Below, in pieces: positions 46,265 to 50,170 of a stretch of 64,000 nt of DNA (position 1 is the first letter of the stretch; each line of letters opens with the position of its first letter). The position numbers and the translations under genes are program-made. The stretch comes from Gemmatimonadota bacterium (GTDB taxonomy: Bacteria > Gemmatimonadota > Gemmatimonadetes > Gemmatimonadales > Gemmatimonadaceae): the NCBI GenBank assembly GCA_014192065.1, contig BJHH01000006.1:1-64000 (forward strand), read 5' to 3'. The notes beneath the pieces were generated by a model. It saw nothing but the letters and a program-made list of their open reading frames with translations, ran no database searches and had not been told where the DNA came from.

Positions 46265-46363
46265 ATGACGAATACGATGAGAATATTGTGCAGTGCGTTC
46301 GCCGAGCCCTGTCTGAAGGCCGGAATGAAGGGAATGCAGATGGACAGGCCCAAGAAGCCCTAA
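46265..46363 (+). CDS. Possible 32-codon leader peptide
   Basis: A short frame starts at ATG 46265 with GGAG 8 nt upstream and ends 35 bp before the GH109-like gene. It encodes MTNTMRILCSAFAEPC and then KAGMKGMQMDRPKKP. Nothing identifies its function. It may be a translated upstream frame that affects the next gene, or chance. Confidence 0.25.
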   Translation: MTNTMRILCSAFAEPCLKAGMKGMQMDRPKKP

Positions 46364-46398
46364 TCGCGAACCCCACCCGCCGAACGACCGGAGTCACG

Positions 46399-47799
46399 AT
46401 GTCAGACCACGAACGCTCTGCAGGTCTCAGTCGCCGCGACCTCCTCAAGGGCGCGGCCCTCGCCGGTGCCGGCCTCGCGGCGAGCGGCGCCTTCACACCG
46501 GCGATCGCTGAACACATTACGGCAGCCACGCATCCGGACCTCGCGCCGCCGGCACCGGCGGCGCGCGCCACGATGAAAGGTGTGCGGTTCGAGCGCCGCG
46601 ACGCGGTCCGCTTCGGCATCGTCGGCACCGGACTGCGTGGTCGGTCGGTGCTCTCGGAGCTGCTCGCGATCGAAGGCGTGCAGATCGTTGCTGTCTGTGA
46701 CACGGTGGCCGAGAAGACGGCTCGAGCCGTGAAGATGTGCACCGATCGCGGCCAGCCTGCGCCGGCCGTCTACACGGACGGCGATCATGGCTTCGAAGCA
46801 CTCGTCGCGCGTGACGACATCGACTTCGTATACACCGCCACGCCTTGGGAATGGCATGTGCCCGTGCTGCTCGCGGCCCTCAAGAGCGGCAAACACTGCG
46901 GCAGCGAATGCCCCATCGGCACGACCCTCAAGGACCTCTGGGCCTTGGTGGACGCGAGTGAAAAGGCGCGTCGCCACTGCCTCCATCTCGAGAACTGCAA
47001 CTACGGTGAGACGGAAATGTTGGTGAACCGTCTCGTCCACGAGGGCGTGTTTGGTGAAATCCTGCACGCCGAAGCGGCGTACCTGCACGACCTGCGGAAG
47101 ATCCTGTTCGAGGACCGCGACGAAGGGCTGTGGCGCCGCGCCTGGCACACACGGTCGAACTCGAATCTCTATCCGACGCACGGACTGGGCCCAGTGTCGG
47201 GGTATCTCGACATCAACGCCGGCGACCGGTATGACTACCTCGTGTCCGTGGGCGGGCCGCACCGCGGTCTCGAACTGCACCGCGAGGCGACGGTGGCGGA
47301 CCATGCAAACCCGAAGTGGCAGGAGCAGTACGTCACCGGCGACCACAACACGTCGATCCTACGCACCGTCAAGGGTAAGACGGTGATGCTGCAGCATGAC
47401 GTCTCGAATCCTCGTCCCTACACACGCCACAATCGCGTGCAGGGCACGAAGGGCGCCTTCGAGGACTATCCGCCGCGCATCTATGTCGAAGGGCAGGCGG
47501 GCGGCGAGCGGTGGGGCGCCATCGACGAATGGAAGGCGAAGTTCACGCATCCGCTCTGGGCCGAGAATGGTGAGCGCGCCCGCAAGAACGGTGGCCACGG
47601 CGGCATGGATTTCATCATGGCCTACCGGCTCGTGCAAACGCTTCGCGAGGGGTTGGTGCCGGACTCCGACGTGTACGACGCGGCCACCTGGAGTGCACCG
47701 CTGCCCTTGTCGGAAATGTCCGTGGCGAAGGGTTCGGCGCCGATGAAGTTTCCGGACTTCACGCGCGGGGCCTTTGCTGCGGTGGGCGCGACGGGCTAG
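46399..47799 (+). CDS. Tat-exported Gfo/Idh/MocA-family protein, GH109-like
   Basis: The 466-residue product has a twin-arginine signal (SRRDLLKG, then LAGAGLAASGAF) and a Rossmann NAD-binding motif GIVGTGLRGRS at 73-83. The later block NLYPTHGLGPVSGYLDINAGDRYDY closely resembles GH109 alpha-N-acetylgalactosaminidases, which cleave the sugar by a redox mechanism with tightly bound NAD+. LENCNYGETEM and FTHPLWAENGERAR also fit. ATG 46399 starts the Tat signal; the longer frame to 46288 has no similarity. It would act in the periplasm on GalNAc-type or related glycosides. The product may be the substrate for the symporter and kinase downstream. Confidence 0.78.
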   Translation: MSDHERSAGLSRRDLLKGAALAGAGLAASGAFTPAIAEHITAATHPDLAPPAPAARATMKGVRFERRDAVRFGIVGTGLRGRSVLSELLAIEGVQIVAVCDTVAEKTARAVKMCTDRGQPAPAVYTDGDHGFEALVARDDIDFVYTATPWEWHVPVLLAALKSGKHCGSECPIGTTLKDLWALVDASEKARRHCLHLENCNYGETEMLVNRLVHEGVFGEILHAEAAYLHDLRKILFEDRDEGLWRRAWHTRSNSNLYPTHGLGPVSGYLDINAGDRYDYLVSVGGPHRGLELHREATVADHANPKWQEQYVTGDHNTSILRTVKGKTVMLQHDVSNPRPYTRHNRVQGTKGAFEDYPPRIYVEGQAGGERWGAIDEWKAKFTHPLWAENGERARKNGGHGGMDFIMAYRLVQTLREGLVPDSDVYDAATWSAPLPLSEMSVAKGSAPMKFPDFTRGAFAAVGATG

Positions 47800-47805
47800 T
47801 GCCGT

Positions 47806-47857
47806 GGAACCGCGGAGATTCGCGAAGAACGGGGCGGAGAATCGCGAAGACTACAAC
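47806..47857 (+). repeat. Left inverted repeat of the GxxExxY unit
   Basis: This 52-bp imperfect arm contains two internal direct copies, GCGGAGATTCGCGAAG at 47812-47827 and GCGGAGAATCGCGAAG at 47834-47849 (one mismatch, 22-bp period). The gene's TAG (minus strand, 47851-47853) lies in its inner end. Confidence 0.65.
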
Positions 47858-48258
47858 GGCGTTTCTTTGGAACTGCGGATCAGGCGGCGGAAGGTGGCGC
47901 GAGGGCCGAAGTTGATCAGCAGGCCGAGCTCGAGCCGGGACGCCTTGAGATAGTTGAGTAGCTGCGCTTCGTGCACCGCCGTCAAGAACTCGGCGACTTT
48001 GCACCCGACGATGACGGTTCGTGCCACCACGAGATCTGCCCGGTATTCACCTACGATCCCGCCCTTTTCCCTGATCCGAAATGGCACGTTGGTGGCGACG
48101 GCGAGGCGCCGAGTCCGAAGTTCCGCGACCAAGGCATGCTGATACGCGGCCTTCAGAAAACCGTGCCCGAGCGTTGTATGCACGCTGAAGAACGCCCCGA
48201 GTATTTCGTGACTCAGTTTGCCGTGCAAGAGCCTGACGTGGTGCGCTGTTGTTCCCAT
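47851..48258 (-). CDS. GxxExxY-family protein, degenerate nuclease-like
   Basis: The 135-residue product follows the GxxExxY family plan: KLSHEILGAFFSVHTTLGHGFLKAAY, then FRIREKGGIVGEYRADLVV, VIVGCKV, HEAQLLNYLKASRLELGLLINFG. The family is predicted to have a PD-(D/E)XK-like nuclease fold, with unknown cellular role. Here the name-giving Glu is Lys (GFLKAAY), and the catalytic E-x-K that is usually VELKA reads VGCKV, so the acidic residue is lost while the Lys and the preceding Asp are kept. A nuclease activity is therefore doubtful. ATG 48258 starts at the family start; the open frame runs on to 48330 through the right repeat. Confidence 0.75.
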   Translation of the reverse strand: MGTTAHHVRLLHGKLSHEILGAFFSVHTTLGHGFLKAAYQHALVAELRTRRLAVATNVPFRIREKGGIVGEYRADLVVARTVIVGCKVAEFLTAVHEAQLLNYLKASRLELGLLINFGPRATFRRLIRSSKETPL

Positions 48259-48261
48259 GGA

Positions 48262-48313
48262 GTTGTAGTTCTCGGCGACGCTCGCGTTGGTCTCAGCGAA
48301 TCTCCGCGGTTCC
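48262..48313 (-). repeat. Right inverted repeat of the GxxExxY unit
   Basis: This is the inverted partner of the arm at 47806-47857: outer 18 bp identical, inner ACTACAAC identical, the 26 bp between diverged. It ends 4 bp before the GxxExxY ATG, so it also holds the gene's leader. Confidence 0.65.
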
Positions 48314-48391: not shown

Positions 48392-50170
48392 ATGCAATTC
48401 ACGACGCTGGACTGGGTGATCATCAGCACGAGCATTGTCATCTCGTTCCTCCCGGCGCTTTTCTTCTGGAAACGGGCCGGGTCGAGCACCACCGAGTTTT
48501 TCACGAGCGGCCGAGCGGCCCCCTGGTGGCTCGTCGGCGTGTCGATGGTCGCGACGACCTTCAGTACCGACACGCCGAACCTCGTGACCAACCTCGTGCG
48601 CGAGCGTGGCGTCTCGTCCAACTGGGTCTGGTGGAGCTTTCTGCTGACCGGGATGATGACGGTGTTCTTCTACGCCAGGCTCTGGCGCCGGTCGGGAGTG
48701 CTCACCGATCTCGAGTTCTACGAAATCCGGTATTCCGGCAAGGCCGCGCGCGCGCTCCGCGGATTCCGTGCCGTCTACCTTGGCCTCTTTTTCAACTGCG
48801 TCATCATGGCCACGGTGAACCTCGCCGCCGCCAAGATCGCCAACATCGTCCTCGGCTGGCCGATGGAGCGCACGCTGTTGGTCTGTGGTGTGATGACGAT
48901 TGTCTTCGCCTCCGTCTCGGGACTCTGGGGCGTGCTCGTCACCGACTCGCTCCAGTTCCTCATCACGATGTCGGGCACCTTCTTCGTCGCGTTCTACGCG
49001 CTACAGCAGCCCGAAGTGGGCGGACTCGCGGGGTTGTTCGCCAAGGTGCCGCCGTCGTCGCTGAACCTGCTCCCCGACTTCGGCGATTGGTCGGTGGCGC
49101 TCGCCGCGTTCATCATCCCCATCACGGTGCAATGGTGGAGTGTCTGGTACCCTGGGGCAGAGCCCGGTGGCGGGAGCTATATCGCCCAGCGGATGCTCGC
49201 CTCACGATCCGAGCGCGATGCGGTCACAGGCACGCTGCTGTTCAACATCATGCACTATGCGCTGCGGCCCTGGCCCTGGATCATCGTCGCGCTCGCCAGC
49301 ATGCTGATCTACCCCAATCTTTCCGATATCGGCGCGGCGTTCCCCTATGTCGACCCGTCGCTCATTGGCCACGACATGGCGTATCCGGCAATGATGAAGT
49401 TCTTGCCGGCCGGTGCACTCGGATTCGTCGTCGCCGGAGTGCTCGCCGCGTATCGCTCGACAATCGAGACGCACCTCAATTGGGGCACGTCGTACCTCGT
49501 GCACGATCTCTACCGGCAGTTCCTCAAGCCAGGGAAGACAGAAAAGCACTATGTACTCGTCGGGCGGCTCACGACGGCCGGCTTGATGATCATTGCGGCG
49601 CTGATGACCTACGCCCTTGGCACGGCGAAAGAGGCATTTGACCTCATTCTCTCGATCGGCGCGGGTACCGGCCTCATCTACCTGCTGCGTTGGTTCTGGT
49701 GGCGCGTCAGCGCGTGGAGTGAGATCTCGGCGATGATCGGCTCGTTCGTCGTGGCCATCGGGTTCTTCATCGCGAAGAAGAACGGCGTGCAGGTGGCGGA
49801 CCACGTCTCGCTCATCGCCACCGTGGCCGCAACCACCGCGATCTGGGTGACGGTCACCTTCCTCGGCCCGCAGACCGATCGCGCGACGCTGGTGAGTTTC
49901 TTCAAGCTTGTGAAGCCAGCCGGTCCGGGGTGGAAGAGTGTGCAGGCCGAGGCCGGTGTCGGCGCGAGTGCCGAATCTCCGGCGCAGGCGCTGATGGGAT
50001 GGATGCTCGGTTGTGCCTTCGTCTACTCGGCGCTCTTCGGGACCGGGAGCCTGCTCTATGGGAAGATGCCGCAGTTCTATGCCTGGCTTGTCGTGTTCGT
50101 GCTGAGCGGTCTTGGTATGTGGAAGGTGTTGCGCGGATTCTGGCGCGGGACGGAGCCCGGGTCGGGATGA
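48392..50170 (+). CDS. Sodium:solute symporter (SSF family)
   Basis: This is an inner-membrane transporter of 592 residues with about 13-15 hydrophobic spans. The N-terminal FTSGRAAPWWLVGVSMVATTFSTDTP stretch, with its GR..PWW and the unwound-helix ATTFS, is the SSF signature that shapes the sodium site. LEFYEIRYSGKAARALRGFR is also typical. SSF members carry sugars, nucleosides, amino acids or carboxylates with sodium. Its neighbours here, a GH109-like enzyme upstream and a nucleotidyltransferase and galactokinase-like kinase downstream, favour a sugar. The ATG at 48392 lies 78 bp after the inverted-repeat unit. Confidence 0.88.
   Translation: MQFTTLDWVIISTSIVISFLPALFFWKRAGSSTTEFFTSGRAAPWWLVGVSMVATTFSTDTPNLVTNLVRERGVSSNWVWWSFLLTGMMTVFFYARLWRRSGVLTDLEFYEIRYSGKAARALRGFRAVYLGLFFNCVIMATVNLAAAKIANIVLGWPMERTLLVCGVMTIVFASVSGLWGVLVTDSLQFLITMSGTFFVAFYALQQPEVGGLAGLFAKVPPSSLNLLPDFGDWSVALAAFIIPITVQWWSVWYPGAEPGGGSYIAQRMLASRSERDAVTGTLLFNIMHYALRPWPWIIVALASMLIYPNLSDIGAAFPYVDPSLIGHDMAYPAMMKFLPAGALGFVVAGVLAAYRSTIETHLNWGTSYLVHDLYRQFLKPGKTEKHYVLVGRLTTAGLMIIAALMTYALGTAKEAFDLILSIGAGTGLIYLLRWFWWRVSAWSEISAMIGSFVVAIGFFIAKKNGVQVADHVSLIATVAATTAIWVTVTFLGPQTDRATLVSFFKLVKPAGPGWKSVQAEAGVGASAESPAQALMGWMLGCAFVYSALFGTGSLLYGKMPQFYAWLVVFVLSGLGMWKVLRGFWRGTEPGSG

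Follow-up and report, generated by a model that had tools for sequence, protein, structure and literature searches.

As described in PMC3116915, REPIN/RAYT systems consist of a single-copy gene for an IS200-like Y1 tyrosine transposase and of its own repeat, which is dispersed as hairpins (REP doublets), while the mechanism by which REPINs spread is still called unresolved there. MITEs are short, gene-less, and intergenic, carry terminal inverted repeats, and match a gene-bearing element, all of which applies to the elements described below as well. GxxExxY proteins are common, and we know of no role assigned to them. Here we describe how a locus encoding such a protein, located in a stretch of 64,000 nucleotides of Gemmatimonadota DNA (the window), compares with these systems.

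In the original prediction, the locus was seen as a possible mobile cassette enclosed by 52-bp inverted repeats. The outermost 18 bp, GGAACCGCGGAGATTCGC at 47806-47823, indeed have a perfect inverted copy at 48296-48313, and the imperfect inverted repeat between the arms covers 23 nt at 91%; over their full 52 bp, the arms are identical at 36/52 positions. Of the claimed repeat there stood an outer block of 18-23 bp and a common inner ACTACAAC, while the middle between them turned out to be diverged. Three matches to the 18-mer (≤3 mismatches) were found in the window, vs 0.28 expected. The direct repeat with a 22-bp period reported for the left arm was confirmed, measuring 17 nt at 94% with starts at 47812 and 47834, and so was the placement of the gene, whose stop codon (47851-47853) falls within the left arm and whose ATG lies four bases inside the right arm. 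Folded as RNA, the window unit scored weakly (z -2.0).

Table 1. Features of the GxxExxY locus in the window
Feature	Coordinates	Strand	Remarks
Upstream flank marker, putative GH109-like ORF (name from the original prediction)	46288..47799	+	
Left arm	47806..47857	+	7-8-bp units CGCGGAGA/CGCGAAGA/GCGGAGA/CGCGAAGA at 10-12 bp spacing, then ACTACAAC; also found elsewhere in the genome
Direct repeat, 17 nt, 22-bp period	47812..47850	+	Inside left arm
GxxExxY (PDDEXK_3) gene	47851..48258	-	135 aa from ATG 48258; stop in left arm
Residue 85, E of the ExK catalytic motif, changed to G	48004..48006	-	GGG; GAG in G008 and G004
Residue 36, E of the GxxExxY motif, changed to K	48151..48153	-	AAG; GAG in the G008 orthologue
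Right arm	48262..48313	-	Inverted copy of left arm; outer 23 nt 91%, inner GTTGTAGT
Downstream flank marker, putative symporter-like ORF (name from the original prediction)	48392..50170	+	

The window protein matched both models of the GxxExxY/PDDEXK_3 family, with 115.5 bits for Pfam PDDEXK_3 (PF13366) and 119.3 bits for NCBIfam GxxExxY (TIGR04256), far over the curated cut-off in both cases, but it differs from the family in that two key, near-invariant Glu residues are missing. The motif residues read K-D-G-K in the window copy vs E-D-E-K in all other rows of two alignments (17 and 53 proteins), and E36K and E85G are each a single transition away from the codon of the orthologue in the relative G008. 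Judged from its sequence, the window copy is a degenerate member of the family by descent, in which the conserved motif is broken, and it is probably catalytically dead. The ratio of nonsynonymous to synonymous branch changes was 20:21 for the window copy vs 8:33 for that of G008, which points to weakened constraint on the former. The window element, with a nuclease devoid of two key Glu residues and with few copies in the genome, mostly single ones, looks like a relic. Two GxxExxY copies of another genome (G047:C1:1139750 and G047:C5:540855) are truncated or contain an in-frame stop, so decay is not limited to the window genome.

A structure model of the GxxExxY protein was confident (mean pLDDT, 94.8), and the nearest solved folds were Cas4 (4ic1, Z 10.1) and then, more weakly, Hjc resolvases and lambda-type exonucleases. 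The protein is therefore predicted to be a Cas4/Hjc-like PD-(D/E)XK nuclease. It resembles the archaeal Hjc Holliday junction resolvases and the Cas4 nucleases in its predicted fold and in the D-ExK layout of the active site but differs from them in sequence: no sequence relative of GxxExxY was detectable among solved structures, and the link to Hjc is one of fold similarity only.

With a 521-bp query, a single full copy of the unit was found in the window genome (G000). Further copies of its arms form an inverted pair with no gene between them (C5:156083-156253) and two tandem units (C1:524121-524172) and lie singly on C13 and C4 of the same genome. A loose 18-bp pattern (3 mismatches) gave 63 matches, compared with 4 when the pattern was reversed; chance probably accounts for many of the weakest ones. 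A second GxxExxY gene, on C9 (L010, about 1630-2210), lies between inverted tandem CACGGGT units unlike the window arms; its reading frame extends well beyond the family domain. A search of the genome and its relatives with the arms had been proposed together with the cassette, and the arms were found both elsewhere in G000 and in two relatives; the label "REP-like" given to them was apt. The further suggestion that the 508-bp unit moves or is copied as a whole was contradicted by its single full copy, by the quite different arms of the second gene, and by the fact that only gene-less palindromes are multicopy. A full unit present once and gene-less palindromes present many times make up a pattern of the RAYT/REPIN type, not that of a multicopy cassette. 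The cassette idea is thus partly supported overall, the association of repeat and gene being real and the copying of the whole unit not.

In the relatives G004 and G008, arms of the window type flank palindromes of roughly 160-290 bp that contain no gene, such as GGAACCGCGGAGATCCGC..CTACAAC, a center, and GTAGTCTCCGCG..CCGCGGTTCC. The gene-less palindromes of G008 carry an inner TTGGGGGAACTGC. In the G004 copy that bears the gene, this motif overlaps the gene's 3' end, and the gene-bearing copy of G008 shows a less exact form of the same arrangement. The arm sequence ACCGCGGAGATTCGCNGAGA (≤2 mismatches) gave 8 matches in G000, 14 in G004, and 28 in G008, no more than one in any of the remaining 38 genomes, and none with a reversed-pattern control; these three are exactly the genomes, of 41, that hold the orthologous gene. 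That G000 has fewer of these dispersed arms than either G004 or G008 agrees with a dying element.

Sixteen arms of GxxExxY genes were compared with the 41 genomes, with at most 12 candidates scored per genome, so the counts are lower bounds. The arm of G020 (C21) was found in at least 23 places, that of G018 in at least 12, that of G004 (C67) in at least 9, and that of G016 (C15) in at least 5, in each case all in its own genome. The arm of G022 had at least 11 places at home and at least 3 elsewhere, that of G008 (C2) at least 12 at home and at least 2 in G013, and that of G017 (C484) at least 13 at home and at least 3-4 in G016. At the threshold used, about half of the arms tested showed no clear dispersal. 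Those that are dispersed have their matches almost only in their own genome, and the hairpin families are particular to one genome or clade and matched to the resident GxxExxY gene. The examples retrieved were gene-less palindromes of about 140-300 bp, and hairpin folding of the G008 and G017 elements and of one whole G020 element gave z values of -9 to -11. Only 11 of 40 gene-less elements from five genomes were located in long open frames, vs 505 of 588 random places. Array-like matches in genomes with no detected gene occurred in G013 and in six Lysobacteraceae, for which gene detection at the DNA level is insensitive.

Comparison of the orthologous interval between the GH109-like and symporter genes, suggested in the original prediction as a search for empty sites, did reveal such sites in other relatives: the spacer was short and clean in at least five of them (G003, G016, G014, G017, and G005). 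In G004 and G008 this site is occupied by the orthologous GxxExxY gene, in G001 by a divergent family member with other arms, and in G002 and G011 by other palindromes. Those of the last two genomes (L082 of G002, about 1805-1905, and L084 of G011, about 2160-2320, reverse; CCGCAGG..CCTGCGG and CCACGGATTTCGCGGATGACCGCGGAT..) are unrelated. This intergenic site seems to be a favored landing place. When the flanking genes were used to build a tree, the genomes with an occupied site did not form one clade (G000 grouped with G008, and G004 with G001), which implies either independent insertions at one favored site or losses. Neither a target-site duplication nor exact element ends were obtained at the window site, the flanks of which, at 75-85% identity, are too diverged. 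In G004 and G001, simple tandem runs (GTCGCGGTTTCC, GTTGTTCCT, AACTAC) were seen within or next to the elements or the GxxExxY gene (L090, L093, L079), as if arms or centers grew by slippage.

Over the cut-off, 35 GxxExxY domains were found in 15 of 41 relatives, and at least 540 relatives of the family were confirmed among the matches listed, over many phyla. Close flanking inverted repeats (score ≥26) were present at 18 of 30 Gemmatimonadota loci vs 7% of control placements, and at a score of ≥36 at 16 of the 30 vs 0/300. The controls were positional placements in the same loci; an earlier null built from mismatched flanks had been contaminated by shared repeat families. A cross-phylum sample of 80 loci (76 usable) gave flanking inverted repeats at 44/76 loci vs 4.1% of 760 control placements, and at a strict threshold at 27/76 vs 0/760, while about 40% of GxxExxY loci had no inverted repeat over the threshold. 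Every copy has a private arm sequence, and what the arms share is a grammar of short units recurring about every 10 bp (e.g., CGCGGAGA, CGCGGAAA, CGCAGACC, CGCAGGTT, and CACGGAT; often CRCGGAT). In one of the Anaerolineae (G050; L336, L338, L342, L349, L350), two facing CRCGGAT arrays with hardly any spacer between them make up very compact palindromes, about 55-65 bp long. The family looks chromosomal, with GxxExxY in 8 of 72,556 plasmid records and no relative found in viral contigs. The latter result, together with the absence of any PHROGs match, led us to reject a phage origin; assignment to a defense system was likewise rejected, the PADLOC matches being Cas4-like and weak.

In Luteimonas, the CRCGGAT-unit array pattern gave 96, 129, and 142 matches in three species, neighboring units yielding overlapping matches, vs 0 in the control, and each genome has one GxxExxY gene. 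These elements are about 100-350 bp long and form near-perfect hairpins (z -11 to -14), and their units begin 9-10 bp apart, close to one helical turn, as would be expected if a protein bound them on one face. Six sites compared held an element in each of the three species, with arm sequences that differ, and no empty orthologous site of a gene-less element was found among the six. The sites thus appear to be old and their contents rewritten or replaced, a pattern that suits the rewriting of old sites as much as recent transposition. In G042, the left and right arms of one element matched each other better than arms of different elements (P < 5e-5); G020 and G008 showed no such effect, and within-element matching was therefore dropped as a general rule. 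Nested elements, with one array pair inside another and an inner second type ending in ATCTGGCYGAGGC, were seen in G042 (L268, L272, L273, L283), as was a further palindrome, about GTAGGAGCAGCTACAGCTGCGAC, at the center of several elements (L275, L276, L277, L282).

Y1/RAYT, the REP transposase, was absent from 8 of 12 genomes (G000, G004, G008, G016, G017, G018, G022, and the Luteimonas genome G041) and present in G020, G042, G043, and G050; given its absence from the eight, it cannot be the general mover and was ruled out as such. In the sample checked for genes lying between array pairs (G050 and Luteimonas), no recurrent gene other than GxxExxY was found. We favor, with confidence somewhat above even, the reading that GxxExxY genes are single-copy protein partners of short hairpin-repeat families, with arrays dispersed mostly between genes and with spread driven by the nuclease. 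The sequences show the arms, their pairing and genome-specific dispersal, a potential to form hairpins, patchy occupancy, and a conserved active site. Weighing against this reading are the loci at which no inverted repeat was detected, the arms that were not clearly dispersed, the array-like matches in genomes with no detected gene, and the fact that neither a target-site duplication nor an exact boundary was found. Binding, cutting, copying by repair, and the nuclease as the mover are what we infer, and an association of gene and repeat is no proof of moving. In the mechanism we propose, the Cas4/Hjc-like PD-(D/E)XK protein would bind the arrays of its own unit and would then cut the array, or a hairpin or cruciform extruded from it; repair of the break might copy or rewrite the element elsewhere, so that hairpins would multiply while continuing to match the gene.

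A host-side nuclease that processes or repairs hairpins, trimming or limiting palindromes, with the arrays as its substrates and not its offspring, would suit the predicted fold, which resembles those of Cas4, lambda-exonuclease, and Hjc-type repair nucleases, and would suit a chromosomal family that is rare on plasmids and without relatives in viral contigs. A housekeeping role fits poorly, however, with the patchiness of the gene among the relatives, with its presence or absence at the same site, and with the private arm type of each copy, and we consider this explanation unlikely. The hairpins also have MITE-like traits, namely, terminal inverted repeats, intergenic position, and gene-less copies, and our check for absent transposases covered Y1 only; they might be ordinary MITE-like elements that another transposase or recombinase mobilizes in trans, with GxxExxY as a passenger of one copy. 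Against a passenger argues the fact that unrelated arm families of many phyla enclose one and the same gene family, with no second recurrent gene in the sample checked; so does the way in which arms follow the resident gene genome by genome. The elements differ from MITEs in that the palindrome takes up nearly their whole length, and they may differ further in that the gene-bearing ones seen encode GxxExxY only and in that no target-site duplication was found at the diverged window site or among the six Luteimonas sites. Such passive carriage strikes us as quite improbable.

The classical cassette that moves whole would agree with the patchy occupancy of the flanked site across the tree of its neighbors but not with a full unit that occurs once in the genome, with the different arms of different GxxExxY genes within one genome, or with the finding that G004 and G008 have the orthologue at this very site, and its probability is very low. 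The location of the stop codon in one arm and of the start beside the other is what an expression signal might show, and the arms could then serve the gene as terminators or regulatory structures, their likeness to other intergenic repeats being incidental; their recurrence as gene-less hairpins, with as many as some 140 array matches in one genome vs 0 in the control, largely refutes this and leaves it hardly any probability.

The nuclease-partner reading places the GxxExxY system beside REPIN/RAYT. As the latter is described in PMC3116915, both have a repeat-flanked single-copy gene, hairpin-forming inverted pairs that are dispersed and mostly extragenic, and a repeat type particular to each gene and genome. 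They differ in the partner enzyme, which is a predicted PD-(D/E)XK nuclease and not an HUH/Y1 transposase, and in the arms, which consist of tandem units of ~10 bp and which enclose the gene. In our analysis the system is best read as REPIN-like but built on a nuclease, and not as RAYT, the defining enzyme of which is not the partner here and is absent from 8 of the 12 genomes. The broader proposal of a widespread transposase-free mobile DNA, in which a GxxExxY nuclease spreads and homogenizes its own genome-specific hairpins and which evolved independently of RAYT/REPIN, is tentative, and our confidence in it falls a little short of even. A full-text literature search, which covered few subscription papers and no bioRxiv preprints, found GxxExxY mentioned in two papers, once in each, and no description of repeats with the family; an earlier description may exist.

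The link to hairpins gives the GxxExxY family its first testable function and offers an explanation for a class of palindromes found between genes where RAYTs are lacking, as well as a second, independent case to set beside REPINs. Luteimonas, in which a single gene accompanies about a hundred array matches, provides a cultured system in which this function can be tested. A little-studied protein family may thus be the partner, and perhaps the mover, of a class of very small mobile DNAs that do without any known transposase.
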